Below are positions 12,840-64,000 of a DNA stretch of 64,000 nt, piece after piece. The notes below the pieces were generated by a model. That model was not told the origin of the DNA. It saw nothing but the letters and a program-made list of their open reading frames with translations, and made no database searches. How positions within the stretch are numbered: the first letter of the stretch is position 1; each line of letters begins with the position of its first letter. A program made the translations under genes and the position numbers. The stretch lies in NCBI GenBank assembly GCA_032622095.1, contig CP136067.1:196068052-196132051 (forward strand), given 5' to 3'. This DNA is from Siphonodentalium dalli (lineage: Eukaryota; Mollusca; Scaphopoda; Gadilida; Siphonodentaliidae).

Positions 12840-13582
12840 TGGAAAATACGGCGTCGATATTTCAGACCGCCGGAAATTCCAAGGGATACAAGAGCTACCT
12901 TGGTGGATAAACTGAAATCTGAAAATTTGATGCGATTCTATAATGTAAATCATGCCGAAAAGAAAACGATCAGTGGAAATAAAATACGAACGTATAGATT
13001 ATTCAAGTCAAAGTATGAAATTGAACCATACATTGTCAATGCGCGATCTGCCAAAGCGAGAATTCTATTCACAAGATTGAGAATCAGTAATCATCGACTG
13101 GAAATCGAAAAAGGGAGACACAAACAGCCCCCAAAACCAGTGAGAGAAAGATTGTGTTCTGCGTGTAATTCAAAACAAATTGAGTCAGAATATCATTTCA
13201 TCTTAGAATGTCGGGCCTATGAAAGTATTCGCGAAGCTTATGAAAAGGACATAATTGCAACGTGCCCTCATTTCTTAGAAATGACAAATTATGAGAAGTT
13301 CAGATTTATTATGCAGAATGAACAAATTGCAACCGTTAACGTTATATGCGACATGATCCGGTCTTTCTTCACCATTCGAGACAATATCCATAATGTCTAA
13401 TAAAAGCAAGTATACTAGTACCCTGAGTATACCTGAGATTTTATGACAGTAAATTCACGAGCGTATATGCATATCGTATGTGATTACTCATGTTAAATTA
13501 TTCCATATGTTGATATATGTATTTATTATATGTGCAACTGCCCATTGGGTGTATTTTGCATTAAAATCTTATCTTATCTTAT
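12840..13582 (+). pseudogene. 5'-truncated LINE: C-terminal end of a reverse transcriptase protein
   Basis: The open frame 12900-13400 encodes the zinc-knuckle-like C-terminus seen in many invertebrate LINE proteins: LRISNHRLEIEKGRHK, then ERLCSACN and EYHFILECRAYESIR. The minus-strand LINE at 28615-32379 has the same region (RTSNHRLAIESGRWKK, RLCTLC, EYHLMITC), so the two are related. The copy ends in an (ATCTT)n tail at 13566-13582. The reverse transcriptase core is missing, which is the usual 5' truncation. The 5' edge is approximate. Confidence 0.8.
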
Positions 13583-14229: not shown

Positions 14230-15371
14230 GGGGATAACGTTTCTAGGTTGACCTCGTGGGGTATGGCCTACGTTATTATGTCGAGATACAGTGTCCATGG
14301 GGCCTCCCGGGCGGTCCCAGTGTTCTGTTTGTTTATATACCATTTTATCGGATTTTGAGGGGTTAATGACACCGGCCGGAGTCGAGCGAGCGAGTACCAT
14401 TTTCTAGGTTGACTTCGTGGGGTATGGCGCTACGATATAACGTCGAGATATAGTGTCCACGGGCCCATGGGGCCTCCCGGGCGGTCCCAGTGTTCTTTTT
14501 GTTTATATACCATTTTATCGGATTTTGAGGGGTTAATAACACCGACCGGAGTCGAGCAAGCGAGTAACATTTTCTAGGTTGACCTCGTGGGGTATGTCGC
14601 TATGTTATAACGTCGAGATATAGTGTCCACGGGCCCATGGGGCCACCCGGGCGTTCCCGGGCGGTCCCAGCACCACTTGTCCTTTTTGTTTATATACCAT
14701 TTTATCAGATTTTGAGGGGTTAATAGCACCGGCCGGAGTCGAGCGAGCGAGTACCATTTTCTATGTTGACCTCGTGGGGTATGTCGCTACGTTATAACGT
14801 CGCGATATAGTGTCCACGTGCCCATGGGGCGGTCCCGGTAGGTCTCAGTGTTCTTTTTGTTTATATACCATTTTATCGGATTTTGAGGGGTTAATAACAC
14901 CGGCCGGAGTCGAGCGAGCGAGTAACATTTTCTAGGTTGACCTCGTGGGGTATGTCGCTATGTTGTAACGTCGAGGTATAGAGTCCACGGGCCCATGGGG
15001 CCGCCCGGGCGGTCCCAATGTTCTTTTTGTTTATACACTATTTTACCGGAGATTGAGGGGTTAATAACATCGGTCGTGGACGCGTCAACGAGTCAATATA
15101 TGGAATTAACACTCAGGTGTATTGCACTACCGAGAATCACCAAAATAATCTGTCTGAAAACACACGAAGACATCGGTAATCACACAGGCTCTTTTAGCCA
15201 ATATCGACATTTGTGGGGTTAATATGACCGGCCGGAGACGAGTAAATTTGTCTATGTTGCCCTCAGGTGGCATGTCGCTACGTTATAACGTCGAGATATT
15301 GTGTCCACGGGCACGTGGGGCCACCCGGGCGGTCCCGGGCGGTAATTAGTCACACCGGGTTGGACTGCCAA
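14230..15371. repeat. Right arm of foldback element: inverted ~168-bp unit array
   Basis: Units read GTCGAGATATAGTGTCCACG and GGTTAATAACACCGGCCGG, the inverse of the left-arm units, repeated about six times. The outer terminal unit (about 15060-15371) matches the left terminal unit in inverse orientation. Confidence 0.85.
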
Positions 15372-28399: not shown

Positions 28400-31300
28400 A
28401 TATACATATATACAAATGTGGATTAGGATGCCTACAATGGGAGACAGACACAGGCCATTGGACCGACAACTCTATATGCCACCATGTCCTTTGATGTGAA
28501 CCAAACATGCATTGGTACTATATGGCTATTGTTTTGCATAAAGGGCAACGTGAACAGTGCACACCCACATCGAGGAAGCAGGGGCTAGATAAATGTATCC
28601 CATGTGTGAGACAATTAGGACGTGGTGAAAGTGATGCCCAAATACCCAGTCGCACGCAGATTCATGCTGTATTCTCTCATGGCTAGCTTCAAATATATAG
28701 CCACATTTTTCAATATGGCTATATTCTCAACGAAGAGAAGTTTGTGAAATTTATACACGTTTGGGTATTTCCAGTAATATTCGGGTATATACTGTTGTCT
28801 AATTTCTGAGAAACATATGCAAGTTATCATCAGGTGATATTCGTCCCCTATTCCATTCTTACACAATGTACATAATCTCTCTTCTTTGTTCGTTTTCTTC
28901 CACCGCCCACTCTCAATGGCAAGCCTATGATTCGATGTCCTGATCTTCATAACATATTCAGATAAGTGGCTCGGCAAATCTGTTAGGTATTTTCTCATTT
29001 TGGGGGACGGGGTTATATCTCTATAGAGATGGCCCCTCGATGTGGATGCTACACTTGTGCCCCATTCTTGTATTAACTGATATGTAAAAATTCGTTTAAG
29101 TAATTGTATTTTCGCTCTTGACAACTCTGTTTGTTCTTCCCACATATAATTGAGGCCTGCCCCGTTTATAGTTTTCTGTATGAACACAATCCATCTTAAT
29201 TTTGTATCGAACATTTGGTCGCGCTCGTGGATAACTTTGGTCAGTTTGTATACATTTTTCGTGATTTCGGATCCTTCATTTGAGAGCAATTTTGACCAAT
29301 AGGATATTTCTCTACATTTAACTTCGATCGACAATGGGTGTCGTCCGAGTTCACCATATACCATATAATTTGGTGTACATGATTTCATACCTAGTACCAT
29401 TTTACAAAACTTAAGATGCACACTTTCAATGGATTTTATATCCTCGTGGCACCAAATTTCGCTACCATACAGAAGTATTGGCACAACCATTACATCAAAC
29501 AAATATAACATCACATCGACTGGCAACTCCAGGTTTCTGACTTTGTTAAACAGAGCGTAAATCGCTTTCGTTGCCAAGTTAAAAGTTCTCTTGATCGATC
29601 TACAGAACCTACCATTATAGAAAAATTCTACACCCAGATACACGAATTCTTTAACAATCTTCAATTCGGAATCGTTAATCTTGAATATTGGTAATCTTTT
29701 TGGTTGTTTCTTACAGAAAATTACTACCTTCGTTTTATTAGTGTTTACTTGCAGACCCCATGGGTCAGTATATAGTCCTGAAAAGCCGAAAGTGCCCTAT
29801 GCATGCATGCTTCGTCGTCGGTCATGAGTACAGTGTCATCGGCATAAAGCAAACACAATAGACATATATAGCATTTCAAATTTTCATAGAACAGTTCATC
29901 AATAAATTTGAGATTACCTATGGCGCAGTCATTAAGATAACTCTGTAAGTCATTTACGTAAAGTGAAAATAGGAAAGGTGACATTATCTCCCCCTGGAAA
30001 AGACCTATGTTGCTGCTGAAAAACTCAGATCGATCAACTTCATTCTTCACACAAGTTTTTACTTGGCTATACATGTTTTTAATTACCCTAAAAAGCTTTC
30101 CGTTGATACCGTTTCGCAACAATTTAAGAAATAGAGCTTCCCGCCAAATCGTATCATATGCCTTCCTGAAATCGATGAACGTGCAGTACAGTTTTCTCCC
30201 ACTTGCCAGGTATATATTTATAAGACTAATAAGAACAAATATGTTATCAGATGTCGAATAATTCTTTCGAACCCCGGTCTGGTTGTCATTAATTAGCTTC
30301 ATCTCATCCGAAAATTTTGATAGCCTTACATTTAGTATCGATGTGAAATTTTTTGAGAAACAGCTTAAAAGCATAATTCCCCTGTATGAATCGGGATTAC
30401 TTACATCCCCGCTCTTTTTGTAAATCGGTCTTATGACCCCAGTGGCCCAATATGTGGGATATAATCCCGTATCTAGTATTAAGTTAAACATTTTTACATA
30501 AACATCAATCAATACATCAACAGAAGATTTGAAATATTCATTGCATAGATGATCGAGTCCTGAAGCTTTATTGTTACGCAAATTGTGAATTGCCGTGCGC
30601 ATTTCTTCCTCTGTTATTTTGTTGGTTCATTTCATTCAGATTTAATTCACAAAACAACTCATCTATATGATCTGCCAGATCTGCTTTTTCGTCTGTATCT
30701 TCATTCATTGCTTTAAAATATTCATAAAAATCACCTATATCAACTTTACTACTATTCGGTGCTGATCTATCGCTATTTGTGAGTTTGTCTAATTGTTTCC
30801 AAAAGTCACCACCAGCCTCAGAGCAAAAGCTCCGTAATTCGGCGATGTTTGATTTACGTTCGTTTCTTATTTTATTATCCATCATTTTACGATAATCTAT
30901 ACCGGTTAATCTTAATATATCCTTATTTTTATCATTTCGATCACGTTGATAATCGGATTTTGCTCTATGGAAACAGTCGCGTTGTTTCTTACAATCTTCG
31001 TCAAACCATGATTTGTGTATTTTTCGCTGTCGTGTGGATTTATGGTTACCACATTGAAACGTTCCACACGTCTTGCTTGCGGCTTCTACTAAAACTCCAG
31101 TTATGTCGCTGCAGATTCGGGTTACTAGTTGCGAAACGAGTTTCCCGACAGATTCCTCACTGATTTGTTGCGCAAATACGCCTTTAAATTCCGGTTTCCA
31201 CCGTTTTCGCCTCATCTCTTGTTGATTAACATGGTTATTTGGAAAATCCGGGTTATCTTTTCGGTTCCACATATTAATTTCAATGTGGAATCCATTGTGT

Positions 31301-32900
31301 ATATCAGAGAACAGTGGTGAGTGATCTAGTATACCGAACGTCCTGATGTCTTGGAATAGGTTTCGGCTACATATTGCGTAATCTATAAGACTTCGATCTC
31401 GACATGTCAGTTTACCGATAGCATTATCCTCTCCGCACCTGCCGTTCATAATAAGTATTTTACAATTGATACATAAATCAATCAGCTTATACCCATAGCT
31501 GTTGACATTCCCTACATCTTCACTGCATCTGACAGGAATATCACATACCCTACTGCAATTATCATATGTGGGTCTATCAGAAATATAGTCAATTAATGTT
31601 TGAGGAACATTTGTTGCGTGTTGGATATCACGATGGTCCACAAGGAGAATATCACTCAGTTCTTTAGTTCGGGCATTGAACTCTCCAGTCAATAAGACTT
31701 TATCTGCATTTCCGCGTAATTGAATTAACTCGCGACCAATTTCGGTAGCCCAATCGTTATTTGCATATCGGGTACCAGCGGGCGGAACATAAACAGCTCC
31801 AACAAGCAGAGACTGGCCATGGGAGACTACTCTAAACCAAGCCGTATTTTTCGATTTCGATTTCAATGGTATGATGTCTCTTATTAGCCTTTTCTTGGTG
31901 GCAACGATTATGCCACCACACCGTTTTCCATTTCCCATAGCCTTACCCTTGGTGACTATCACATCAAACCCTGGAATTATTACTGAATCCTCAATGAATG
32001 TTTTTGTTTCTGACAAACATAGGATATCGTATTCGTTTATATGGTCCATAAACTCTTGATATTTCATTCATTTTTCAAGCCCACACACGTTTAGAGATAG
32101 AATTTTCAGTGAATTTTCATCAATTAACCTAGAGTGATTCTCTTCGCTACCAACGTGAGTATCCAAACCCTTAATATCGTGAGCATTATGGTGGTCAGTA
32201 GTGGCCACGTTTTTATTACAAATATAATTTAAATGTTTGTGTGACTTGACTATATCTTCCTGTACGTGTACATGCGACGAACAGGGTCCCTGAAATACAT
32301 GTTTACAAACAACAATACTATTGATTGATTGATTCTGATATGTGGTCAGTTTCCCATTGGGACACACATCAATTGTCAAGTTTGGCGTTTTTTCTCTCTG
32401 GCGTCGGTGACCCAGTGCTGCGATTGCGCTTTTTCGATTCCGCTGCCTGGGAGTCTGAAATAGCTGCTGCTAATTTTGATTTCCCGTCTGGGCTGAGGTG
32501 CAAGCAGGAATAATGATTTGGTAGTAATCATGTTTTTGTTTTTGTTCGATGGGTTGCAGGGAAGTGACTGTTTGGAGAAAGTCATATAAGGACAGTTGCT
32601 TCATGGGGGGTAACTTGTTTGGAATCGATACTTGAGGGGGCAAGTTATGAATTTGGGAAAATAATGGCTTCCATTGTGGCAATTTATGTAATTCAATAGT
32701 TGATTGTAATTGAGTTATTTGTGTCTTGATGGTGATGTTTGATGAGTTCAAAGTTGTGAATGCAATTAATTTGATGCTGGCTGATGTAGCTATGCAACTT
32801 GGTGGTAAACTATCATGGGCTTTGGTTATTATGGGTGGGGTGTACGATGGGTTATGGGTAATTGTGTGACACGTTTGTCGTGTTTTGTATGTCACATGTT
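28400..32900 (-). mobile_element. Second LINE (minus strand), nearly full length, degenerate
   Basis: It contains an endonuclease plus reverse transcriptase coding region (28615-32379, see the pseudogene entry). Remnants of a basic, Ser/Pro/Lys-rich upstream frame (about 32370-32520, reading TGSPTPERKNAKL) may come from ORF1. A tandem repeat at 32869-33190 sits at its 5' side. The 3' limit is uncertain: a minus-strand AATAAA lies near 28350. Confidence 0.75.
28615..32379 (-). pseudogene. LINE endonuclease-reverse transcriptase (one stop, two frameshifts)
   Basis: Reading on the minus strand from 32379: the endonuclease starts at LKILSLNVCGLEK and meets a TGA at 32068-32070 directly followed by ATG, probably a CGA-to-TGA change. 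It continues with LSETKT, VYVPPAGTRY, TGEFNAR (the usual GDFN has become GEFN), RSLIDYAI and LDHSPLF. A frameshift near 30615-30640 leads into the reverse transcriptase: GVIRPIYKK, motif A FIDFRKAYDTIWREA, FQGEIMSP and motif C YADD. A second frameshift near 29750 leads to VNTNKTKVVIF and the C-terminal RLCTLC...EYHLMITC region, ending at 28615. Clade not assigned; related to the fragment at 12840-13582. Confidence 0.88.
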
Positions 32901-41109: not shown

Positions 41110-41141
41110 AATATAGGTGTGAGAAGTTTACCCGAATCATA

Positions 41142-43830
41142 ATTATACTTCCATGGTGTAACCAAGGAAGTATATTGTTTTTGTACTGGCGCCGTTTTCC
41201 GTTTATTTGGAAATATTCAGAAAGTAATTGCAGTAGAAACACAAAACCTGTAGCGAATATGTAGGCATCTGAGGTCTACTAAAAATAAAGGTATCCGCAT
41301 GTCGGTCCAATGTTTCTTGACGGAGTTATGGCCCTTTTTCGATTATTTTTCATTATTATTATTATTATACTTGACACTTTTGCAACCCTTATTACTCGAA
41401 AAGTATAAGGAGTAGCACACTAAAACTTGGTACGTATGTTGGGGTCAAAGAGTTGTATGCCCAGGTCGCATAAAGCATAGTGTCCGCATTTTTCCCGAGG
41501 AGTTATCTCCCTTTATCTGAAAACATTTCATTTTATTATCTCGGAAATTATAAGGAGCAGAGCATCGAAAATTGGACCGTATGCACACCTCGATATGCCC
41601 TACTGCCCACGGGCATCAAAACTTATGTCCGCGCTTTTCCTGAGGAGTTACCGCCCATAAATAGGCAAACCTCTATTTCATTTACTATGCTGTAGTGTGT
41701 ACTCTCGTATCATTAGAGATAACTGCATTTGGATTTCATAGTCGTGTTGACCGTTGTCAGTTTAGTCTGAAAAAGAAAATTGAACAGGGTCGGACATATA
41801 TTTTGACGCTGGGGTGGGGGCAAAATTTTAGGAAAAAAAAGGTTTTGATTGACATTCCTCTATTTAAGTATGTTGATTCCCTGAACGAAAACAAACCCAT
41901 ACTGGAAAGGATTTTTGAAATCCGAGAAGAAATGCAAGAGTTACGGGCCCTCAAAGTTTGCAATTTGGGCCCATGTGCTTGTGACCACATCTCCTCCGAA
42001 GATGTCGAAGTTTGGATGTCAACTGATACGCCAACGTGTGCGGACGGAAGAGGGCACGCGGCTGGCCAAATTTTGCCAGTGTCGGTTCATTATTGTGGGT
42101 CTGGGGAGGGGTGGTCCGTGGTACCAAATTTTAATTATTCTCGGAATCAGATGAAACTTGGAATATAACATCTGCAACATCAGCCGATCTAGAAACTGGA
42201 AGAATTTCGAAAATCCATCGAAAACTAAAAGAATCGCGGGCCCTCAAACTTTACCATTTTGGGCCCATGTGCTTGATAACACATCTCCTCCGAAGATATC
42301 GAACATAGGATGTCATCTGATACGAAAATGCGTACGGACTGAAGACGGCACGCGGTGGGCCAAAATTTGCCAGTGTCGGTTCGGTATTGTGTGTCTGGGG
42401 AGGGGTGGTCAGTGGTACCAATTTTTAATTCTTTTCCGAATCAGATGAAACTTAGAATATAACATCTGCAACATCAGCCGATCTCGAAGCTGAAAACAGA
42501 TCGTAAATATGTTGGGAAATGGCGGAGATTTTGGCCGTCCAAGTTTGAATTTGGGCCCATATGCTTTCCAATAATCAAAGTGTTATCCGTCTCCAAATCA
42601 GATGAAATTTTTACTATGCAATCCATGTCAGCCGCAAATCACAAAACTGGAAACAACTTTTAAATCCGATGGAAACTAACGAAGTTACGGGGCCTCAAAC
42701 TTAGCATTTTGTGCCAGGGGTTGATGTTTTCCCAATCCCGTCACCCAATTTCGAGGCAGGGGTGGGGTCACGTCCAAACACTTGAGATCAACCTACACAT
42801 ATTAGGACAACATATAATCACCATACTTCATATTTTCCGTCCATAAACTGCTATTCTTTCCACTCATGATTGATCCTATTATTATACTTCCATGGTGTAA
42901 CCAAGGAAGTATATTGTTTTTCTATTGGGGCCGTTTTCTGTTTAATTGAAAATACTCAGAAACTAATGGGAGGAGGACCGTGAAATCTAGGGAATGTAGG
43001 CATCTAAGGGATACAGAAAATGAAGATATCATGAGTTCGGCCCAACGCTTCGCCACGGAATGAAATTTAAAAAAAAAATATTTTTCACTATTATTATTAT
43101 TATTATTATTATTAAAAATACTGCACACTTTTATAATCACTTTATTTCGGAAAGTATGAGCAGTAGAAAACTAAAAGTTGGTAAGTATGTTGAGGAAAAT
43201 GAGTTGTATGCCTAAGTCGCATAACGAATATTGTCCGCGCTTTCCTCGCAGACTTATCTTCCTTTATCTGAAAAAATGTCATTTTACTATCTCGGAAATT
43301 ATGAGGAGCAGGGCATCCAAATTTGGACCATATGGACACCTCGATATGCACCACTGCCCACGGGCATCAACACTTGTGTCCGCGCTTTCCCTGCGGAGTT
43401 ACCGCCTATATATAGGCAAACCTCTATTTGATTTACTATGCTGTCCTCTCGTATCATTCCAGATAATTGCATTTGGGTATCATAGTCGTGTTGACCGTTG
43501 TCAGTTTTATTGACGCTGGGGTGGGGGCAAAATAAAAATAAATGTTGATTGACATTCATCTATTTAAGTATTTAAGTAGATGGATTCCCTGAACGAAAAG
43601 AACCTACACCAGAAAATATTTTTGAAATCAGAGAAGAAATGCAAAAGTTACGGGCCCTCAAAGTTTGCAAGTTGGGCCCATGTACATCATATCTCCGACG
43701 AAGATTCATATTATGCTACACGCGAAACGGAGATGACTTTTGTGGAATCCAGAGTCCAAAACGGATCCAAATCGATCTGTTCCAGAAAAGTCGTTCAATT
43801 TGTTTTCACTTTTTGAAAAAGGCTCCATTA
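41142..43830 (+). repeat. Two tandem units of the ATTATACTTCC hairpin element family (subfamily A)
   Basis: Units start ATTATACTTCCATGGTGTAA at 41142 and 42891 (spacing 1,749 bp); the second is cut at about 43830. The start forms a hairpin, ATACTTCC-A-TGGT paired with ACCA-A-GGAAGTAT. Bodies share TGTCCGCGCTTTNCC, GAGTTATCTCCCTTTATCTG and ATTATGAGGAGCAGNGCATC with the array at 55849-60695. Open frames inside are short and not conserved in a coding manner. Confidence 0.75.
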
Positions 43831-43849
43831 TTTCAACCTAAACCTTTGG

Positions 43850-44940
43850 ACGCCAGATTCGCGCATGCGCAGACCAGATCTCGGAAACAGGTGGAGCTAT
43901 CGACTTGAAATTTGGTATGTGAATGTATCTTGCCCCTGATACGAATTTTATCGGGTCGCCGAGCCCGTGCGACGCCAGCTTCGCGCATGCGCAGACCAGA
44001 TCTCGGAAACGGGTGGAGCTATCGACTTGAAATTTGCTATGTGAATGTATCTTGCCCCTGATACGAATTGTATCGGGTCGCCGAGCCCGTGCGACGCCAG
44101 CTTCGCGCATGCGTTTTTGACCAGGCGGTCGACCTTGTCGTATTGGCGAGCCCGTGTGGCGCCCGCTTCACGCATGCGCAGACGAGATCTCGGAAAACGG
44201 GTGGAGCTATCGACTTGAAATTTGCTATGTGAATGTATCTTGCCCCGGATACGAATTTTATCGGGTCGCCGAGCCCGTGCGACGCCAGCTTCGCGCATGC
44301 ACAGACCAGATCTCGGAAACGGGTGGAGCTATCGACTTGAAATTTGGTATGTGAATGTATCTTGCCCCGGATACGAATTTTATCGGGTCGCCGAGCCCGT
44401 GTGACGCCAGCTTCGCGCATGCGCAGACCAGATCTCGGAAACGGGTAGAGCTATCGACTTGAAATTTGCTATGTGAATGTATCTTGCCCCGGATACGAAT
44501 TTTATGGGGTCGCCGAGCCCGTGCGACGCCAGCTTCGCGCATGCGTTTTTGACCAGGCGGTCGACCTTGTCGTATTGGCGAGCCCGTGTGGCGCCCGCTT
44601 CACGCATGCGCAGACGAGATCTCGGAAAACGGGTGGAGCTATCGACTTGAAATTTGCTATGTGAATGTATCTTGCCCCGGATACGAATTTTATCGGGTCG
44701 CCGAGCCCGTGCGACGCCAGCTTCGCGCATGCACATACCAGATCTCGGAAACGGGTGGAGCTATCGACTTGAAATTTGCTATGTGAATGTATCTTGCCCC
44801 GGATACGAATTTTATCGGGTCGCCGAGCCCGTGTGACGCCAGCTTCGCGCATGCGCAGACCAGATCTCGGAAACGGGTAGAGCTATCGACTTGAAATTTG
44901 GTTTTTGAATAGCCCGGACAACGTCGGGCTCATCGGCTAG
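43850..44940 (+). mobile_element. Helitron-like 3' end with expanded internal satellite
   Basis: About eight full ~121-bp units (containing GATCTCGGAAACGGGTGGAG, CTATCGACTTGAAATTTG and GAATGTATCTTGCCCC) lead into the 3' hairpin GCCCGGACAACGTCGGGC (44912-44929) and CTAG (44937-44940). The 5' end is not present; the satellite abuts the hairpin-element repeat at about 43840. Several units carry the palindrome GCGCATGCGC. The long minus-strand frames here come from repeat periods divisible by three. Confidence 0.8.
44093..44908 (+). repeat. 432-bp higher-order repeat in the Helitron satellite
   Basis: Landmarks recur exactly 432 bp apart: 44093/44525 (GACGCCAG then GCATGCGTTTTTGACC), 44158/44590 (GGCGCCCGCTTCACGC) and 44281/44713 (GACGCCAG then GCATGCACA). 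One period holds a short ~66-bp unit and three ~121-bp units. The second period is cut at about 44908 by the element's 3' end. Shared private variants show a recent block duplication. Confidence 0.9.
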
Positions 44941-45786
44941 TCTATTATATATTTTGGAAGATCTGTGTGTGTGTGTGTGTGTCTGTCTGTGTGTTCGCGA
45001 TTAGCTCGAAAACGGCCGAGCCGATTTCGATGAAACTTGGCATGTGGGGGTATTTTCGGCCGGGGGGTGGCATGTGCTTATTAATGTGTCCGTGCAACGT
45101 GACCTTGACCTTGAAATCGGGTCATTTCGATTTCGATGAAACTTCGTATGTGGGGGTACTTTCGGCCGGGGACGGGCATGGGCCTATTAATTTGCACGTG
45201 CGACGTGACCTTGACCTTGAAATCGGGTGATTTCGAGGTCAAATGCCCGAATATCACGGGATTTCGATGAAACTTGGTATGTGAGGGTACTTTCGGCCGG
45301 GGAGTGGCATAGGCTATTAATCTGCACGTGCGACTTGACCTTGACCTTGAAATCGGGTCATTTCATTGTCAAACGCCCGAATATCACGGGATTTCGATGA
45401 AACTTAGTGACTATGCATGGATACTTTCGTATGGGGATTCTCATAAGCCTATTCGTTTGCCGTGCGACGTGACCTTGACCTTGGAATCGGGTCAATTCAA
45501 GATCAAATCGCGAATTTTGATGGGATTTCGACGAAATTTGATACGTGGGGTTAATATTGTCCACTGAGTGTTTTGGACGGGTCGAGTCGTGACCCTGAAC
45601 TGACCTCGACCTTCAAAATTATCAATTCGAGGTCAAATCGGGTAAAACCGGATGGATTTCGACGGGCACGTTTGTCGGGTACTTTTGTCCGGGCAGTGTT
45701 TTGGACGGGTCAAATCGTGACCCCACCTGACCTTGACCTTCAAAATGGACAATTCAAGGTCAAAGTCCGGACGAAGTCGGGTCACC
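44941..45786 (+). mobile_element. Helitron-like element 2 of the head-to-tail array
   Basis: It begins TCTATTATATATTTTGGAAG directly after the CTAG of the preceding element. It contains repeated GATTTCGATGAAACTTGGNATGTG units and many TGACCTTGACCTTG motifs. It ends in TCCGGACGAAGTCGGGTCACC at about 45765-45785, without CTAG. The next element starts inside where that end should be. Confidence 0.75.
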
Positions 45787-46580
45787 TTATATATTTTGGA
45801 AGATCTGTTTGTGTGTGTGTTAGGGTGTGTGTGTGTGTGTAATCGATGAACTCGAAAACGGCCGACCCGATTTCGATGAAACTTGGTATGTGGGGGTAAT
45901 TTCGGCCGGGGGGTGACATAGGCCTATTGATTTTCAGATCCGAGGTCACCTTTTCACGTGCCGAGGTCAAATCTGTTTTTACGCTGTGTTACGGGACTTT
46001 CATTTGAGTTCGGTGCTTACAAATCGATTCGAAACAGCGCGAATAATAAAATGCCAGTCATAATAATGACACTGTGAGAATCTTTCGTGTTTCCTCTTTC
46101 CAACGATATATAATGCCTATGTATCCGTTTTAGTTATCTGCCTCAATTATCAAGAAGAAGTGGTACTATCTTCCATCAGGATAAAAACAATGCGTAACTT
46201 CTATGACGTCGTTAGAGGTCATAACGTTAGATCACGTTAACGCTTAACCGGCCGATGCATTTGACTGTTTCAGACGTCTTGGCGATATCTCGGGCACCGA
46301 TGGTAATTTATCTTTACGTTGAAACTTGATAATTAATGAGCGTGTGTATATGAGGCGCGTTTATATACTTGAGTGGAAATCAAATCGGGTTAAACTGGCG
46401 GATTTTTACGGACGAAATTTGATGCATAGGGTATCTCGGTATCCGCTGGGCCGATTTCCTGGTATCCGCTGGGCCGATTTCCACCATTTTTGGGGTGTTG
46501 GTGTTTGACCCCACCTGACCTTGACCTTCAAAATGGTCAATTCAAGGTCAAAGCCCGGACGAAGACGGGTCACCTTCTAG
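45787..46580 (+). mobile_element. Helitron-like element 3 of the head-to-tail array
   Basis: The start is TATATATTTTGGAAGATCTG, lacking the first bases (TCTAT) of the usual head and fused to the previous copy. The 3' half (46211-46580) is nearly identical to 1-364. It ends CCCGGACGAAGACGGG, then CTAG at 46577-46580, followed by T. Confidence 0.8.
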
Positions 46581-50475: not shown

Positions 50476-53400
50476 GAGCGCGAAACAATGGAAAATCGCG
50501 AATCTACTCAATCTAGTGTTTTATATTTTGAACAATGCATGTGTTTGGTAGTATATATACGGACACCATTAGTTTTAAAACGGACGGGTAGGCACTCAGA
50601 TGACATTATCGATTGTGATATAGTTATCTCTTGATTACTGTTAACTATATTACAACGACGTTAATGAGTATAGTGTGGCGATGACGCTCTGAATTAATTA
50701 ATAAGCGGTCTTTCCTCTTCCATTAAAACGAACAATTCTGAATCCGAAACTGAAAGTACTATCCACTAAATGCGATATAACGGAGTTATTTTACATTAAT
50801 ATGATTTGCACCCTTTTGATATATATACATGCCTATTACTCTATAATCAGACACACCAAATTTCGTGACCGTTGAACAGGATTTGGGCGTCCAGGGGAGC
50901 GGCTATAATTAGCCATAAAATGTATCCCTACGAATACAAATGAACTGATTGGCTGGGTGAATGGTGACTCAGTTGGTCAGGGCCATGATGCATTAGACAG
51001 TCATTAATCATCATGACATAAACCTTTGGAGTATATTTCTTATTTAGAAATGTCAATGCAAGTCCACCATCGGATCATTAAGCTCCAATATGCATTCGCA
51101 TAAAGAGGAACACACATATACGCATAACACTCACATGGGATTGGATGGGATACCATGGAAGTATATCTGATTCCATGGAATCTGACCTCTAGTTATTGTT
51201 TGTTCTGCTCAATGAGAATTATATTTTTAGGATGAATTTCATTATGTGGTGAATATACATATGCTGTGCATTTTAGTCAGTATAATAATGCAAAAAGTGG
51301 TATCCCAAGAACGTACATGGAGAATAAGACAATGTCCATGTTGTTGAAAATGGTAGTTATATTAGGCAATTGATGGTTTTCAATATTTTTATTCAGTTTA
51401 ATAGCAATAAATAAAACGACATGGTAATATAAAACTTGTTACCGATAAATACAAAACATAAATACAAGCTGAAAATAACAAAACGATTATCCGATAATTA
51501 GAATTCAATCCCATCTAGTCACTTTCAGTGTAGCATTTGACGATTACTTAGGCCAAAACAAAAAACGTCTCGGTTTCCGGTACCCGGCCTGGCTGAGATT
51601 TTCTTGCCGGCCTCAATTTTTTTTTTAATTTTCACGAAGTCCAAAGTAACCTTTCTGTCTGAGTTAATGGCTATGGTTTTCCCAATACCAACAGCAGAAC
51701 TAACCACCAATCGCATACACACCTGACGCATGTTTTACGATGTGTAGGCCATGTGCGCGATCGCGCTTTCTTGATATAAATAAGACAACTATAGGTCGGC
51801 CATGCTACGCAGTGAATACCGTGGCTTAAATCAAACTCTACCCTGACGAGTCACTACGGAAATCCCCCCGTCTTTTGTGGGCTGTGTACACTCTACTACA
51901 CTGCTGTGTATTTTAAAAAGTACAATGTATTAATTATACCGGTAGCTCCCTTAACTTCCTCGCCTAATTGGGGCAAAACTTGCTTGAAAGACCATCTGTT
52001 CCCGACAAAACAGTGAAAAGCATGTGCGTTTTTGGCGGGAAAATGACAGTCCGTATTACGTAATCAGTCCTGAAATTAGCGTCGTCAAAAGCCGAAGTCA
52101 CCATCAACATTGACATGACGAAATCGTCATCAAAGATTAAAATGCATTGGCATCCTTGAATATTCACATAAACCCGATTTTAACCCACTTTAAATAAACA
52201 ACTGTCTGTTATGAATGACACAACAACTGGGTCACTGTGTCACCAACCAAACGCATCAGTGGGTCACGTGAATAAACTCTGTGTAACTATTTACGACAGA
52301 CTCTCTTTGATGTTTTCCGACCAAGTAGCAGATACAATGTACCACTGATAGAAACAACTCGCACTGTATGCAAGTATTAAACACACATTTCTGATCATCT
52401 GATGTGCATACATGTACTGCATGTACGGATTATTTGATAACTTGCTGTTAATTACACTGAAAGTTGGCAGGTAATCAATTCTGCTATTTAAAACTTTCCG
52501 GGATTGAAACAAAATAAGTCGGAAATAGGTGACTTGAAACCACAATACAAGTTAGTGATTTTGGTAATATGGACAAGTTGTCACTGAAAAATAATGATCA
52601 TCTATGAAGAGAAATAAGAGGGGATGAAAATACAATAGGTTTTATTGAAATGGCAAGTATTTATTCCATAAAACGATCTCTGTCAACACCAACACCTGGA
52701 AAATTTCGTCGGCAGTGATGAATAGAATGGCATAAAATGTGTAACCTCAGGCCCAATCTACACCAGAGATATTCAGGGGAAGATTGGAACAAAACATGTT
52801 TATTCCTGCATATCCAAGAACAGTCAGTAACATTGTTCTGGTCACATGTAATTTGTAAATAAAGGTATCAGATGCTACTGTTGCATTGTGGGCTGGTATC
52901 TGCATGGACTACATGTATGTAAGAGGAATAACTCTAAACCCATGGCCATAGTCTAATACATTGAATTTTCACACTGGAGCACATACTAGAGCTAGAAAAT
53001 ATCTTTAACACCTAAATACATGACATAATAGTCCAGCAAGCTGCATAATATATTACCAATTAGCATGTATAAAAGCATGCCAATTTTATAATATATGTTA
53101 AAAGGGTGTACTACACTATTTTATCGCTTTCAAATGGCCGGTTAAAAAAAAAAAAAAAAGTGTAAAAAAAAAAAAAACCCTGCCTGCCTACCTGGAAAAT
53201 TTTCCCCATGTTATCGGAAACAGACATGTTTTTTTTTTTGGCCTTACACACAAAAAACATTACACATGAACAATATTTCCACTATGTTTCATTTAATACA
53301 GAGCTTACAGATATGTGGCTTATCGACGCTTCACACGGTGGATTTGGAAAATGTTGGGAAGACATAACCGAAGGAGACTACCAGCATGTGCTATCACTAA

Positions 53401-53490: not shown

Positions 53491-56400
53491 TTAGGTGGTC
53501 ACATTAAATCTGGATTTCCGTGTTCTGATGAGTTCTTTCTTGTTGAATTTCTTGTAACCGGCTGTCAACGGATCTGGTTGTTGGTGGTGTTCTGAGAATG
53601 TCGAATTGGCTGCTGCTCCACTTTTGAACTCACTTCGACATTTTACAATTTCTTCAATGATGGAGGTTACATATTCTGGAATAAAAATTTATGTGTTATT
53701 TTAAAATTTGTGATGAACTGTGTATGTGTATATTTACATATGAATTATATTAACCTTGTATGCAATTTAATGATACATGTATATGTGCAAGTTCAGAAGT
53801 AGCTGTCATAATTTCTTTTAATACTCAGTCTGAAGTGTGTGTGTGGGTCATCCATAAAACTAAAAATGAACAGTCTACATGTAACATAAAATAATTCAAG
53901 TCTGAAGTGTGTGTGTGGGCTAATCCATAAAACTAAAAATGAACAACAGTCTACATGTAACATAAAATAAGGCAAAAATCTGGAGGATGTGACCTTATAA
54001 GCTTGAGTTGTAATATTACGTATCGCAAACCACGTCAATTATATGATATCATGTGATTATTTGAAAAAAAACTTACTGAATGTTGGGGCTTCTTTAACTG
54101 GTACAACTACTGCGATCTCTCCTTTTTTGAATTTAGGATATTTGACGTTCCATTGCAGTTCACCATCTTTTGTCTTCTTGTGTGTCTTATTGGAGTTTTC
54201 ATTAAAATGCAGTGCTGCTACCAACAATCTGAAATTAAAATATAAATATCACCTACTTTTATTTGATATTTACATTACGTGCCAAATTATGTACACAATG
54301 TTTGCCTTATGTACAAAATGTGCACCATTTATGGGTTTTATTGTTTTACCTACATAATACAAGAGCTACATGTACTTGAATAGACTGGAATGAAAAAGCA
54401 ACTATCTCGCGATGATGTCTCAACAAACTAGTTGCTGATATACTTGGTGATCACATAATATTTTCATAATCACACATTGAAACAAACTGGTGAAATTATT
54501 ATACATAAATCATCATACCTTGCTTTCATGGTCCAGTAGCCAAAATGTAGACTTTTCGGAGCATATCCGATTACAACTCTGTGAAATACTTCCAGTCCAT
54601 ATGTCTGGTGTACAGGTGATAGCTTTTTGATGTCTGTGATGAGAGCTTTCTGGGTCACGATTTCGCTGATTATTTTGTGCTGTATTGTTCCTGAAATAGA
54701 AAATTAGTAACTCTAAATATAGTACCTGTATATTTACTGTGGTAATTGATAAACTTGCAATCAGCCTTTTTTATTTGTTTCATCGTGTTCACAAGAAATT
54801 TAAAAAAAGTAATTGTAGAAAAAATATTATTAGTATTTGGGTATACCGGGTATATATAAGGAACATTATAAGTTGTATAAGTTACATAACATAGTTACAT
54901 GTATAGTTATACACTCCATAAATCAAATAACCATATGCATCCATATAAGACAAGCATGTATACTGTTACAGATATAGAGAACAATATTTACCTTTCTTGA
55001 TCCATTCACGTGATTCTTTTATTCGGGAATGTGCACATTTCTTGAATAGCTTGCCATGGCCAGTATGTTTGTTGCTGATGTGGTTTAGTAAGGACAGCCA
55101 TTTCGCTTCTTTCATGGCACCGTCATTGCCACTTGAGGCGGCAACCCAGTACAAGTGGTTGGTAATTGACTTGCACCACAAAGCAATTACGCCACAACCT
55201 GCTTTCTTCGCAGCTTTCAGCAGTTTTTTCAGGATACCTGTAATACAAATTATGATCTTTAGTGTACATATACAATATTTTTGGAATTTATCTAAAACAA
55301 AATATGTTTCATACCTAATTGCATACCGGTACCGGTCCAATATCTCAAGGCAGTCAAAATATGATGTTTGTTTTTCAAACAACTGGTTATTATATGTAAT
55401 ATTTTTTAAATGTATGCTCTTCAGAAATAGCCAAGTTATCCATTACAGAATAATAAAGAGCGTTCATAAATGTTTGAACCGAAATGCTAATGCGCACACC
55501 AGTGCATGTTTTTTTTACTGTATACATTTACTTTGGATATATATAAGTGTGGTTGAATAAATGTCAAGAGTGCATACCTTTGGACATATGCCACACATCA
55601 AAATAGTGTTCCACATCTTTCATTTTCTTCAGATAAGCCTTGACTTGAGTGTGGCGATCAGTAACCAGGGTTTTCAATGATATCGAATTTGCTGAAAGGA
55701 ATGCCATACTTCGCTTTAACCCCTCAAGCTCCATGGCATTGCTGTTAGCAACTTCTCCCTTCTGAAAATAAAAGAATGCATTCATAAAATAAAATGAATC
55801 AAGTGAGAGATTTTGTAAGGCAAACACTTATCATGTATTTATATATGATTATTATACTTCCATATTTTAATATGGAAGTATATTGTTATTCAATTTATTA
55901 TTTTTTTCCATTATTATTATTCTTAGCAATTTTGTAACTCTTATATCTCTGGAAGTACAATATATAGAGATCTGGAATTTCGTACGTATATAGACCTATA
56001 ATAATTCTAGGTCAATAGACTATATAGGATATTGTCCGCCCTTGATTTACAGAGTTATCTCCCCTTTTGTGAAAAAATGGGGATGCTGTATCTCGAAAAG
56101 TATGAGCAGCAGAGACTCCAAATTTGGACCATATGTACAACTCAGTATGCCCTATTGGGTGAATGCATTACAATTTATGTCCGCGCTTTCGCCACAGAGT
56201 TGTCGCCCATGGTTCGCAAAACTCGATTTATTTCATATCCTGTTTCTGGCTATGGCATGCAAGGTATCCAGATTTGAGATCTTCTATGCAGTTAATCATT
56301 AGCAACTTGATACGAAAAAAAGTTTTGAACAGGGACGGCCTTATATTTTTGGAGTTTGGGTGGGGGCAAAATTTTCGCAAATATTTTTTGCGATGATTTC

Positions 56401-59400
56401 AACTATTTTTACTGTCGTGTATCTATAAGACGTACTAATGATCCTCCTGAAAGAATTTTGTAAATCGGTTGAGAAATGTCCAAGTTACAGACCATCGAAA
56501 ATTGTATTCATACATCAATTGAGGAAAAAGTGCTTTTGACTCTATCTCCTCCTAGACGACGCACATAAACTGGATTTGGTTTATGTGAGCGTCTTATCCA
56601 TAGAGAGAAGATGAAATGGTGAAATTTTGATCAAGATCCAATAAAATTTGTCCGCACTAGGGAGGGGTCAAAATTTGTCAATTTTTTTTGGTCGCTGATT
56701 TGAACCAAAATTGTTGTAAAGTATCTATAAGATGTACCGAGTGTCATTATGAGTGAATTTTATGAATCGGTTGAGAAATGTAGAAATTGTGGCTCCTTCC
56801 TTTTTTTCAAGTTTACAGAAAATGCACTATGAATTTAAATTCCTTCAACCAATCGTAACGTGTTTGGTGTCATTCGATGGGGAATTTCTAGTACTTATAA
56901 ACGATTACCTACTTGTCGTATTATGTCGATAGAGGCGAGAGATATTCGAAAAGTATGAACAGAACAACATACATATTGGCCTACATTATAAAATATCGGC
57001 ACAATACCTCACCAAAACCCTGGTAAATATTATAGGGGCATTAAATACGAACACAATGACGCAAAAATTAACTAGATATCTCAACAATTGGCCGAGATAT
57101 GGCGACTTTTCTATCCACGTCACCAAATTTCGAGGCATGGGTGGAGGTCACACCAGAACGTTCAAACTGAACACACAAATGTCAATAAACCATACTATCG
57201 ACATACCAATCAATTTCGCGCGATTCCCTTATTATACTTCCATATTTTAATATGGAAGTATATTGTTATTACACTTCCATATTTTAATATGGAAGTATAT
57301 TGTTATTCAATTTTTTATTTTTTTCCAATATTATTTATTATACTAAGCAATTTTTCAACTCTTATATCTCTGGAAGTGCATGATATATGTAGCTGGAATT
57401 TCGTATGTATATAGACCTATAATAATTCTAGGTCAATAGACTATATAGGATATTGTCCGCCCTTGATATACAGAGTTATGCCCCTTTTTGTGAAAACAAT
57501 GGGGATGCTGTATCTCGAAAAGTATGAGCAGCAGAGACTCCAAATTTGGACCATATGTACAACTCAGTATTCCCTATTGGGTGAATGCATTAAAAGTTAT
57601 GTCCGCGCTTTCGGCACAGAGTTGTCGCCCATGGTTCGCAAAACTCGATTTATTTCATATCCTGTGTGTGGCTATGGCATGCAAGGTATCCAGATTGGAG
57701 AGCTTCTATGCAGTTAACCATTAGCAACTTGATACGAAAAAACGTTTTGAACAGGGACGGACTTATATTTTTGGGGTTTGTGTGGGGGCGAAATTTTCGC
57801 AATTTTTTTTTCCGATGATTTCAACTATTTTTACTGTCGTGTATCTATAGGACGTACTAATGATCCTCCTGAAAGAATTTTGTAAATCGGTTCAGAAATG
57901 TCCAAGTTACAGACCATCGAAAATTGTATTCATACATCAATTGAGGAGAAAGTGCTTGTGACTCTATCTTCTCCTAGACGACGCACATAAACTGGATTTG
58001 GTTTATGTGAGCGTGTTATACATAGAGAGAACACGAGTTGGTAAAATTTTGACCAAGATCGAGTGAAATTTGTCCGCACTAGGGATGGGGTCAAAATTGA
58101 TAATTTTTTTGTTGACTCCGATTTGAACCAAAATTGTTGTGAAGTATCTATAATATGTACTGAGGGCCATTATGAGTGAATTTTGTGAATCGGTTGCCAA
58201 ATGTAGAAATTGTGGCCCCTTCCTTTTGTTCAAGTTTACAGAAAATGCACTATGAATTTAAATTTCTTCAACCGATCGTCACGTGTTTGGTGGCATTCGA
58301 TGGGGAATTTCCAGTACTTCAAAACGATTACCTACTTGTGGTATTACGACGATGGAGGCCAGAGATATTCGAAAGTATGTACTGAACAACATACATATTG
58401 GCCTACATAGTAGAATATCACCAAATTAACTTACCAGAACCCTACTAAATATTAAAGGGACATCAAATACGAACACAATGACGCAAAAATTAGCTCGATA
58501 TCGCGAAAATTGGCCGAGATATGGCGAATTTTCTATCCGCGTCACCAAATTTCGAGGCATGGGTAGGGGTTACACCAGAACGCTCCAACTAAACACAGAA
58601 ATGTCAATAAACCATACTATCAACATTCCAATCAATTTTGTGCGATTCCCTTATTATACTTCCATATTTTAATATGGAAGTATATTGTTATTCAATTTTT
58701 TATTTTTTTCCAATATTATTTATTATACTAAGCAATTTTTCAACTCTTATATCTCTGGAAGTACATGATATATGTAGCTGGAATTTCGTATGTATATAGA
58801 CCTATAATAATTCTAGGTCAATAGACTATATAGGATATTGTCCGCCCTTGATATACAGAGTTATGCCCCTTTTTGTGAAAACAATGGGGATGCTGTATCT
58901 CGAAAAGTATGAGCAGCAGAGACTCCAAATTTGGACCATATGTACAACTCAGTATTCCCTATTGGGTGAATGCATTAAAATTTATGTCCGCGCTTTCGGC
59001 ACAGAGTTGTCGCCCATGGTTCGCAAAACTCGATTTATTTCATATCCTGTGTGTGGCTATGGCATGCAAGGTATCCAGATTGGAGAGCTTCTATGCAGTT
59101 AACCATTAGCAACTTGATACGAAAAAACGTTTTGAACAGGGACGGACTTATATTTTTGGGGTTTGTGTGGGGGCGAAATTTTCGCAATTGTTTTTTTCGA
59201 TGATTTCAACTAGTTTTACTGTCGTGTATTTATTGGACGTACTAATGATCCTCCTGAAAGAATTTTGTAAATCGGTTCAGAAATGTCCAAGTTACAGACC
59301 ATCGAAAATTGTATTCATACATCAATTGAGGAGAAAGTGCTTGTGACTCTATCTTCTCCTAGACGACGCACATAAACTGGATTTGGTTTATGTGAGCGTG

Positions 59401-62400
59401 TTATACATAGAGAGAACACGAGTTGGTAAAATTTTGACCAAGATCGAGTGAAATTTGTCCGCACTAGGGATGGGGTCAAAATTGATAATTTTTTTGTTGT
59501 CTCCGATTTGAACCAAAATTGTTGTGAAGTATCTATAATATGTACTGAGGGCCATTATGAGTGAATTTTGTGAATCGGTTGCCAAATGTAGAAATTGTGG
59601 CCCCTTCCTTTTGTTCAAGTTTACAGAAAATGCACTATGAATTTAAATTTCTTCAACCGATCGTCACGTGTTTGGTGGCATTCGATGGGGAATTTCCAGT
59701 ACTTCAAAACGATTACCTACTTGTGGTATTACGACGATGGAGGCCAGAGATATTCGAAAGTATGTACTGAACAACATACATATTGGCCTACATAGTAGAA
59801 TATCACCACATTAACTTACCAGAACCCTACTAAATATTAAAGGGACATCAAATACGAACACAATGACGCAAAAATTAGCTCGATATCGCAAAAATTGGCC
59901 GAGATATGGCGAATTTTCTATCCGCGTCACCAAATTTCGAGGCATGGGTAGGGGTTACACCAGAACGCTCCAACTGAACACAGAAATGTCAATAAACCAT
60001 ACTATCAACATTCCAATCAATTTTGTGCGATTCCCTTATTATACTTCCATATTTTAATATGGAAGTATATTGTTATTCAATTTTTTATTTTTTTCCAATA
60101 TTATTTATTATACTAAGCAATTTTTCAACTCTTATATCTCTGGAAGTACATGATATATGTAGCTGGAATTTCGTATGTATATAGACCTATAATAATTCTA
60201 GGTCAATAGACTATATAGGATATTGTCCGCCCTTGATATACAGAGTTATGCCCCTTTTTGTGAAAACAATGGGGATGCTGTATCTCGAAAAGTATGAGCA
60301 GCAGAGACTCCAAATTTGGACCATATGTACAACTCAGTATTCCCTATTGGGTGAATGCATTAAAATTTATGTCCGCGCTTTCGGCACAGAGTTGTCGCCC
60401 ATGGTTCGCAAAACTCGATTTATTTCATATCCTGTGTGTGGCTATGGCATGCAAGGTATCCAGATTGGAGAGCTTCTATGCAGTTAACCATTAGCAACTT
60501 GATACGAAAAAACGTTTTGAACAGGGACGGACTTATATTTTTGGGGTTTGTGTGGGGGCGAAATTTTCGCAATTTGTTTTTTCGATGATTTCAACTATTT
60601 TTACTGTCGTGTATCTATAGGACGTACTAATGATCCTCCTGAAAGAATTTTGTAAATCGGTTCTGAAAAGTCCAAGTTACAGACCATCGAAAATTAAATA
60701 ATTGAGCTAATGTAGGAGCATTGGAGAGTGTGATACCATACCGGGGAGGCGATGAAAACATGTAGGGTGGTGATACCACGTCGGGATGGTGAGACCAGGC
60801 CGAGGGTGGTGAGACCAGGCTGACCGGTGGCGGATGTAAACGGCAGATTTAGCAACAAAAAACAAAAAACAAGTCCAGCGTTATAATATTTTTGTTGCAT
60901 ATTCCGAATGGGGAGAGTGGTGCGGACCGAATTTTACCGCTGGCAAGTTTTTTGTCCCAATCGTTACCGGTCTACGGCATGTACAAGAAAATTACCTATT
61001 TTTGGCGCCAAATCCAAACGGGCTAATATGTGAGCAAGGTTAATGCAGGAGCAGGTACTGCGGTATCGCGTAGGTAGGCCCCCAAAGTTTGATAGCTCTG
61101 CTATAATAGCAAACTGTCAAACAGCGAGTGATCTTCCGGTCGGTTCAGACTTTTTGCAAATTCCAACGAAAATCAAAGGGGGAAAAATTGTCTAAAAATC
61201 AAACATCGAGACAAAAATATTTTGAATAGTGGATATGATAGATAGTACCCAAACGCAACTTATCGATGTCTGCTTAATTTGCGCTAAGGTACCAGGTTTA
61301 CTAGTGGCGAGGCTTTATAATGTTAACAAGTATATTTAAGTGCTGTATCACTAAGCTATTTTTCTCGCCAAATCCGACCGGGTTAATGACGGAGCAATGT
61401 AATGCAGGAGCCGGTTCGTTGATATATTGTTGGTAACATCCCAAAGTTTGACCGCTCTACTTACAAAGCAAACCGACCAACGGAAAGCTCGTGTTCAGGT
61501 AGGTACATATTGGCAATTTCCAACAAAAATCATAAGTTCAAAAATTCTTGAAAAAAATAAAATATGGAGATAAAATTTTGCTGACGAGTGGATGTGATAG
61601 GGGATATCAACGCCCTACACTGGTGCGATTGCTTAAGTTTCAGAACAAAGGATCCACTCGTGGCGACGATATATGGCGTAGTGCGTAGTACATGCATAGG
61701 AACACAGACTACATCGATATATGGCAAAAGTCGAAATTCAAGCAGGCTAATGAAGGAGTGAGTCAAATGCGTGAGCATGTGCCTCAGTTTACCATATATA
61801 CATCCTGGAAGTTTGACTGTGGTATAAAAGCAATCCGTCTAACGGAGAACGCGCATCGGTTGGTCGAGGCTTTTGGCAACTTCAAGTATATTTTGCAAAG
61901 AAATACATGAAGAAATCGAGATAAAGCAAATTGGATGTGGTCGGTACTATCCACGTGCAAATTCGATGATTTTTTTTACTTTTCAAATGAATGCGCAATT
62001 AGTTAATCAGGATTAAGTGACCGATAGATATTACATGTATTCACTTATCATGCAGAAAAATACTCCCGGATGACTGTATACACATAGGAAAATTAATGTG
62101 AAGGGTTAACAATATGACTCTCTCTTTAAATAACAAGTTTGAAATAGTTTGTGGGTACAAAATAATAAATATGAATTGAAGATCCATGTCCAGTAAGACT
62201 TCTATCAGCTAATGTTTAATTTTTTCGAATATTTTATATTGAAATGAGATGTTTAATTGGGACAAGTTATTGATTTATTTTTAGAACATACCTGGTCACT
62301 GGTAACAGTAACCACTATTGTTCGTTAGCTAAACAACCACACATTATTTGACCAGAAGATATTCGAAATGAAATCAATATTAATCAATAGACTCATTTCC

Positions 62401-64000
62401 GGACAGAATTCTTGACTCATATTTAATATTTTATACCCTGATAACTATATAATACATTAAGTATAGGCTTATAGATATGTGTAGATCAGGGTTAGGCTTA
62501 ATGTTAACGTTATGGTCAGGATATGGTTTATAAATTGGGTTAGAATTGTGGATATTGTTAATGTTAAAATTGTGACGGTGTCAGTTATGCAAAGGATTTG
62601 GTTGTGGGTACGCTTGTATGTATAACTAGGCTCATCGAAAGAGTTTTGGTAATGGTCCAAGGTACGGCTATGAATATGGTTTGCAGGAGGGCAATGTATT
62701 TGGTAAGGATATTTTATTGGGTTAGAGTTAAGTGCTGTGGATAGGGCTGTGGAAATGGTTATGATTATGGATTGGCTGCCAATATTAGGGTTAGGAGTGG
62801 TTTATGTGTAAGGATTGGATAGGGGTCGGTAGATGATTAAATTATGGATGGTGGTCGGGGATGGGGAATTTATATGGAAGTATCAAAATTCTGCAGGCCA
62901 GAATTTTAACCCTCTAGTTATATTTATTATTATTTTTGTAATAGTTTCACAGTTATAATTTAAAATGTCACAGTTAGACTATGTGTATGATAATTATAAT
63001 TGTATGTGTGTAAATAATATTTGTGTTGTTTGTGATAATAAAACAATATTTTATAATTTACTTCTTTCTCTGCCCACACAAAATCCAACGAATTCATGTA
63101 GATTATTTAGATTATAATAACTACAAGTTTTGACTGTACTCTCAGGTGCGTAATAATCGCGATGACATAATAACAGTGAAGGTTTAGGCTGAAATTAAAA
63201 TTAGTGATATCAATTTCACTCTGTCTCACCGCCAAATAAGAGCGGTAGTTTCAGGAATTTTCTCCAAAATTAATAATCGTGCTGACACTATTATCAGGCA
63301 CCTGAGAGTCATTTATGATTTGGGAATGATATAAAGTATATATTAGCCCTACCCCCCCCCATGTACACCCCTCCCCACGGAGACCCCTCTATACCCACAT
63401 CCCTTGGTGCCATTGATATTTCCGTCCACAATAGTTTTGTGTGTATTTACATGTACCATTACAAAAAGACTTAGACCCACAGTTGTGTGATGAAAATTTC
63501 AGTAAATGTTCTAACCTGCACTAGTTGCATGTCTAAAACCTTGTTGTTTACTAGGTCCATAATGGTGTAGGACCCGTACTTCGCCGTATGCCCCGAGGAG
63601 TCGCAACGGGCATCTCCTCCAGCTATCACTGGTGTTCTGATGGCATTCAGGATGACTCGTTGTTCTCTCTCCCACACGCTGATGATGCTAGGGACGACGA
63701 AAGCTCGTTGTGTCTGTTGAAAGGCCGTCCGTTGTAAACAAGGCACTCCCATGTGTCGGAGAAACTGCCGAATCTTTGCGTAACTACTGCCCGAGATGGT
63801 GACGGCAGCAGTCAAAATGAGGTTGCCGGCTGGTGATCGGTTGCAGAACGGTTGCGTAGACCATAACCGGGTAAACCCACAACTGCAGGTAACTTTGAAG
63901 GTCGCCATGGTCCCACGAGTCCTAACCAAGCACACCTGGGCAGTTGATTGACACAGCATACATACGGCGAGGAGCAGACGGAGGCAATCTTCAAATACAA
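53491..64000 (-). CDS. DDE-transposase-like uncharacterised protein, 3' six exons (5' end outside window)
   Basis: Minus-strand exons: 64000-63516, 55761-55578, 55237-54992, 54690-54519, 54228-54077 and 53675-53491. All have GT/AG borders and join in phase, giving about 472 residues without a stop. Exon 1 (partial) has CSCGFTRLWSTQP, SPAGNLILTAAV and GGDARCDSSGHTAKYGSYT. Exon 2 has MELEGLKRSMAFL, LVTDRHTQVKAYL and HYFDVWHMSKG. Exon 3 has NHLYWVAAS, KEAKWLSLLNHI and KHTGHGKLFKKCAH. Exon 4 has KKLSPVHQTYGLEVFHRVV. Exon 5 has AALHFNENSNK and YPKFKKGE. Exon 6 ends KKFNKKELIRTRKSRF. From recall, this order defines a large animal family often labelled uncharacterised or THAP-associated, with an RNase H-like DDE fold. 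The Asp residues of GGD and VTDRH are the likely catalytic ones. Intact splicing suggests a functional gene or a young autonomous element. Confidence 0.85.
55849..60695 (+). repeat. 1.38-kb tandem array (subfamily B of the ATTATACTTCC hairpin elements) in an intron
   Basis: Units start TTATTATACTTCCATATTTT at 55849, 57229, 58651 and 60036; the last stops at about 60695. Spacings are 1,380, 1,422 and 1,385 bp, the extra 37 bp in the second being a duplicated terminal hairpin. Units 2-4 are nearly identical, unit 1 more diverged. The start is a perfect hairpin, ATACTTCCATAT with ATATGGAAGTAT. Related to 41142-43830. It lies in the first in-window intron of the minus-strand gene. Confidence 0.9.
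60985..61910 (+). repeat. Degenerate ~370-bp tandem repeat (three units)
   Basis: The words CCAAATCCAAACGGGCTAAT (60999), CCAAATCCGACCGGGTTAAT (about 61369) and GTCGAAATTCAAGCAGGCTA (about 61731) start units that also share AATGNAGGAGC and CCCAAAGTTTGA. A further copy is at 50305-50475. No coding sense. Confidence 0.65.
61911..63515. other. Intronic, non-coding; telomere-like words at 62480-62800
   Basis: Scattered GGGTTAGG, GGGTTAGAG and TTAGGGTTAGG words occur in an otherwise degraded purine/T-rich stretch. They could be an old interstitial telomeric-type repeat or chance. Nothing else recognised. Confidence 0.3.

Follow-up and report, generated by a model that had tools for sequence, protein, structure and literature searches.

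A putative Kolobok-superfamily DDE transposase gene split by at least five introns in the scaphopod Siphonodentalium dalli

A six-exon open frame at the end of the window

The window analysed here is a stretch of 64,000 bp from the mollusc Siphonodentalium dalli (assembly GCA_032622095.1, contig CP136067.1, positions 196,068,052 to 196,132,051). Its last part carries six exons on the minus strand, from 63516–64000 (truncated by the window edge) through 53491–53675. Once joined, these exons form a single open frame of 473 codons followed by a stop. The five in-window introns all display GT...AG borders with pyrimidine-rich acceptors, and the phases out of exons A to E (0, 1, 1, 2 and 1) represent the three phase classes. 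Thus, the six exons with canonical borders, three phase classes and no stop that had been claimed in an earlier note, made from the letters alone, are all found, on a strand (minus) that this note did not name. The splicing of the six exons is predicted from their borders and frame.

Exon A (63516–64000), the 5' part of which is cut by the window end, is open up to its donor site (CAG/GTTAGA) and encodes a Cys-rich N-terminal region and then GGDARCDSS, which would include the first catalytic Asp according to motif assignment. It is followed by intron 1 (55762–63515), a phase 0 GT...AG intron of 7754 bp with 36.5% GC that contains a tandem array. Exon B (55578–55761) encodes VTDRH, to which the second catalytic Asp is assigned by motif, and FDVWH, which includes a C/DxxH motif. 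Exon C (54992–55237) encodes a zinc-finger pattern, H-x4-H-x9-C-x-H, and exon D (54519–54690) encodes GLEVFH with a candidate third catalytic Glu. Exon D, like exon E (54077–54228), has an open frame and splice sites, and exon F (53491–53675), the last one, ends with a TAA stop at 53491–53493. A candidate polyadenylation signal, ATTAAA, is located at 53292–53297 on the same strand, about 193 nt past the stop; judging from its letters only, this signal, which starts at 53297, is followed in 3' by a GT-rich stretch (TGTTTTTTGTGTGT).

The in-window exons range from 152 to 485 nt and have a GC content of 37.5–52.4%, that of the four short introns being 25.9–29.4%. None of 5000 first-order Markov sequences modelled on the exons was open over the whole fragment, so that chance does not explain the open frame. 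Exons D to F, which lie outside of the Pfam match described below, stay open on their own in 2 of 20,000 such sequences; they are supported by their frame, splice borders and composition.

Motif order, profile match and superfamily

The 473-aa fragment displays, in this order, CMLC and CSC (within the Cys-rich region), GGDARCDSS (GGD at residues 127–129), VTDRH (194–198), DVWH, H-x4-H-x9-C-x-H (275–292, the finger residues being H275, H280, C290 and H292) and GLEVFH (336–341). Among the motifs that the earlier note had listed, GGD and VTDRH are present, whereas its WHVAKG reads WHMSKG here and spans the junction between exons B and C. A DDD/E triad with a C/DxxH motif between the second D and the last E is therefore present (GGD/CDSS, VTDRH, DVWH and GLEVFH), and an H2CH zinc finger with Cys at the third position lies between C/DxxH and the candidate last E. 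The catalytic Asp and Glu residues are putative assignments by motif, and we take the Glu of GLEVFH to be the candidate third catalytic residue. The DxxH motif is weak by itself, as a second D-x-x-H (DVEH, residues 210–213) is found just upstream of DVWH.

The Pfam family PF20700, named 'Mutator-like transposase', is the sole family that exceeds its own cut-off with the spliced protein (33.8 bits vs a cut-off of 26.5). The match covers residues 19–280, encoded by exons A to C, and stops short of the finger Cys and of exon D. When searched alone, exon A scores 24.0 bits over residues 16–99, below the cut-off of 26.5, and exons B, C and D–F, taken separately, match none of the Pfam families (E up to 10). 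Exons A, B and C joined in order reach 35.7 bits; after scrambling of B and C behind A, the score fell to 21.1–23.4 bits in seven of seven controls, with a match to exon A only. Since scrambling lowers the PF20700 score, exons B and C contribute real signal in the predicted order. The profile search against transposase families that had been proposed for the six-exon protein did retrieve such a family, and this match, the shuffle control and the Kolobok motif order support the earlier description of a DDE-transposase-like gene, predicted to be spliced. A match to zf-UBR (E 0.18, under the cut-off) was rejected. A comparison of the protein with NCBIfam retrieved no family at E up to 1, and neither Pfam nor NCBIfam returned any match named Kolobok. 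The solved structures gave four weak matches (best E 0.35), none of them to a transposase, and a search of the window with Rfam found nothing at gathering score.

The succession of D, D, DxxH, H-H-C-H finger and candidate E corresponds to the published layout of the Kolobok superfamily of DNA transposons (Kapitonov and Jurka 2007, as cited in PMC9587614). For this reason, we interpret the gene as a spliced DDE transposase gene of this known superfamily, present here by its 3' part, rather than according to its Pfam label. According to PMC9587614, almost all Kolobok transposases possess a zinc finger located between C/DxxH and E, which MuDR, P and hAT lack; the Kolobok finger is named H2CH in PMC6004289, where THAP and DDE are the other motifs listed. 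The likeness to PF20700 concerns the N-terminal region and the DDE core, and the difference lies in the name of this family and in the end of the match before the finger Cys and exon D. That the protein would be a Mutator-like (MULE) transposase instead, a question separate from whether the gene belongs to a transposon, to the host or to a decaying copy, appears quite unlikely. PF20700 is indeed the only Pfam family above cut-off and bears the name Mutator, but this name is only a label, and the accession was not found in the literature searched. Furthermore, the lack of a zinc finger between the second D and E, a trait of MuDR, is not observed here: an H-H-C-H finger follows DxxH and precedes the candidate last Glu, and a finger of this kind is reported to be absent in MuDR (PMC9587614).

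Within Kolobok, the gene shares its core with KolobokP, KolobokD, KolobokE and Kolobok5, as these are described in PMC9587614, KolobokP being given there as common in bivalves. In contrast with these four groups, it has no second finger (CCHC) downstream of the first Asp, C132 and H137 being the only Cys or His between residues 129 and 196. As a further difference, none of the ten intron-1 or antisense ORFs scanned here matches an accessory nuclease; more generally, no accessory Kolobok protein was found above cut-off among these ten ORFs compared with Pfam, the one sub-threshold match being to DUF6486 (E 0.07). MULE insertions generate target-site duplications of about 8–11 bp, whereas Kolobok elements duplicate TTAA at their target site and have 5'-RR...YY-3' termini. 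In Kolobok of the Xenopus type, the THAP domain is N-terminal.

Element-borne transposase, host gene or silenced copy

Taken as a whole, these features lead us to lean slightly towards the 3' part of an animal Kolobok-superfamily DDE transposase gene with five in-window introns and every in-window exon readable, borne by a mobile element rather than adopted by the host. The activity of such a gene could be viewed as follows: its spliced mRNA would be translated into a transposase with an RNase-H-like domain composed of Asp, Asp and Glu together with DxxH and the inserted zinc finger; after recognition of the terminal inverted repeats of the element that encodes it, this transposase would excise the element at its ends and insert it into TTAA sites. 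The length of the locus is no argument against a mobile element, as the 10.5 kb present in the window falls within the range of the seven full-length Xenopus Kolobok elements reported in PMC6004289 (6.8–13.9 kb). Other observations go against an element-borne Kolobok transposase: the only library family above cut-off carries the name Mutator and not Kolobok; the gene is split by introns, whereas PMC6004289 describes those of Xenopus Kolobok as ORFs without interruption; and the divergence of the array located in intron 1 hints at a long residence.

This tandem array (55849–60695, no strand assigned), delimited by self-alignment and unit comparison, consists of three units of about 1385 bp and a partial unit of about 660 bp. 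Units 1 and 2 are the most different neighbours (118 of 1379 sites, i.e. 8.6%, after exclusion of an additional copy, of 37 bp, of the unit start that lies between them); units 1 and 3 differ at 114 of 1379 sites and units 2 and 3 at only 12 of 1385. Units 2 and 3 are thus 99.1% alike, unit 1 being 91–92% identical to either of them. Each unit opens with a near-perfect palindrome of 30 bp (TATACTTCCATATTTTAATATGGAAGTATA), one base of which differs in the second unit. The shape of the array, (R-I)3-R with an R of about 660 bp, recalls the KolobokP multimers, the (LTDR-INT)n-LTDR structure of which, according to PMC9587614, includes LTDRs of about 450 or 660 bp. The lengths are compatible, unlike the termini: the array starts with TTATTATACTTCC instead of two purines, and neither a terminal inverted repeat nor a target-site duplication was convincing by eye. 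Its identification as a KolobokP multimer was not retained.

Other repeats were noticed in the same intron and elsewhere. Two direct copies about 71% alike (60996–61241 and 61356–61600) represent an old decayed repeat within intron 1. Portions of the ~660 bp with which the array unit begins recur as diverged copies (66–71%) at 41358–41835 and 43228–43444, the rest of the unit having no match there at the threshold used. Upstream of them, stretches located at 41136 and 42878 are 81–84% like the palindromic unit start.

The array bears on the second explanation, that of a domesticated gene: the host would have captured a Kolobok transposase, interrupted by introns and maintained by purifying selection, and would possibly use it for DNA binding and not for cutting. 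We consider this explanation less likely than the first. Frame and splice sites are intact in spite of the divergence between units 1 and 2 of the array (118 of 1379 aligned sites). Assuming that these units diverged within the intron (about 4.3% for each lineage), neutral simulation left intact 32 of 4000 copies with an indel/substitution ratio of 0.034, taken from the array itself, and 2 of 4000 with a ratio of 0.10; copies were counted as intact when every exon of the window was preserved together with the 10 splice dinucleotides (kappa of 2, three quarters of indels frame-shifting). However, the array may have diverged before its arrival, or the whole element may have moved recently together with its array, and in both cases the neutral clock says nothing. 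The array divergence is thus an indirect hint at a long residence with an intact frame. In addition, the only matches of a tblastn search of the window with the protein, beyond the six exons, were three at E 6.7–9.6, so that no second copy was found in the window, as would fit a domesticated gene.

Comparison with Xenopus cuts both ways. Domestication of Kolobok transposases is reported many times in this genus by PMC6004289, and the gene described here resembles these domesticated genes by its intact frame. The catalytic candidates are also intact, which goes against domestication insofar as no more than 24 of 38 and 7 of 24 Xenopus genes have retained DDE (PMC6004289). Nevertheless, no motif, DDE included, has been lost in the domesticated genes of the Xenopus subfamilies D1 and D5, according to the same survey, so that the preservation of these residues settles nothing. 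The more specific proposal of a spliced, non-vertebrate Kolobok transposase turned host gene (at least six exons), which would have kept its catalytic residues and remained intact while the tandem array invaded and enlarged its first intron, is a shade more doubtful than domestication in general.

A third explanation is that of a recently silenced or partial copy, whose in-window exons would be intact through youth alone, the missing 5' part being broken or the promoter lost. In simulation, depending on the indel rate, 1541–2184 of 4000 copies were intact at 0.5% neutral divergence and 613–1226 of 4000 at 1%. The 5' end of the gene is moreover outside of the window. Conversely, the window shows no damage to frame or splice sites, and the array suggests a greater age; a silenced or partial copy is therefore considered unlikely.

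Detection of putative split Kolobok genes and other features of the window

Considered alone, this gene represents an ordinary member of a superfamily already known. The bivalve survey PMC10294476 (ORFs of more than 300 aa) and the Xenopus survey PMC6004289 gather transposases as uninterrupted ORFs, and a transposase split into exons of 152–485 nt would be missed by surveys of this type. If such split genes are common, the number of Kolobok genes, live or domesticated, is underestimated in invertebrates. Should the gene be a spliced domesticated Kolobok transposase of a non-vertebrate, it would belong to a kind invisible to surveys based on long single ORFs. In a search by title and start of abstract, which mostly covered journals without subscription, no spliced or domesticated Kolobok gene was found in a mollusc or another invertebrate. 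The earlier note describes this transposase family as widespread and multi-copy in marine animals, and published statements on Kolobok in animals agree with this. The best matches of the Xenopus transposases reported in PMC6004289 include uncharacterised cnidarian mRNAs, and Kolobok is named in a fungal co-option screen (PMC10799480).

A search for related loci was carried out in viral (IMG/VR) and GTDB genome contigs, where the absence of relatives is expected for an animal gene. In the IMG/VR contigs, two stretches carried the searched pattern, neither of them a relative, and a degenerate DNA pattern for CDS[SP]GxxAKYG retrieved no stretch. The latter pattern was found in three GTDB contigs, whose best tblastn E values (0.29, 0.73 and 1.1) were read as chance. 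The FDVWHxxK pattern occurred in 13 viral contigs, and a comparison of the protein with 16 loci gave no match (E up to 1).

The gene had been described in the earlier note as standing amid decayed repeats, which is true in part; the window also holds a LINE-like frame (2656–5925) that matches endonuclease, reverse transcriptase and, under cut-off, PHD. This run is interrupted by two stops only and is perhaps, for this reason, a young copy. On the minus strand, long open frames at 28615–32067 look by eye like a LINE polyprotein; the two ORFs scanned in this run (28615–29796 and 30574–32067) have no Pfam match at E 0.01. Two arrays of a 170-bp unit (11099–12030 and 14240–15073), which by eye resemble the reverse complements of one another, flank about 2.2 kb in which lies an ORF of 217 aa (12747–13400) devoid of Pfam match at E 0.01. 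Finally, a higher-order tandem array with periods of 122, 188, 310 and 432 bp occupies 43849–44900, and the 2-kb bin 44001–46000 has a GC content of 51%, as against 33–44% in all other bins.
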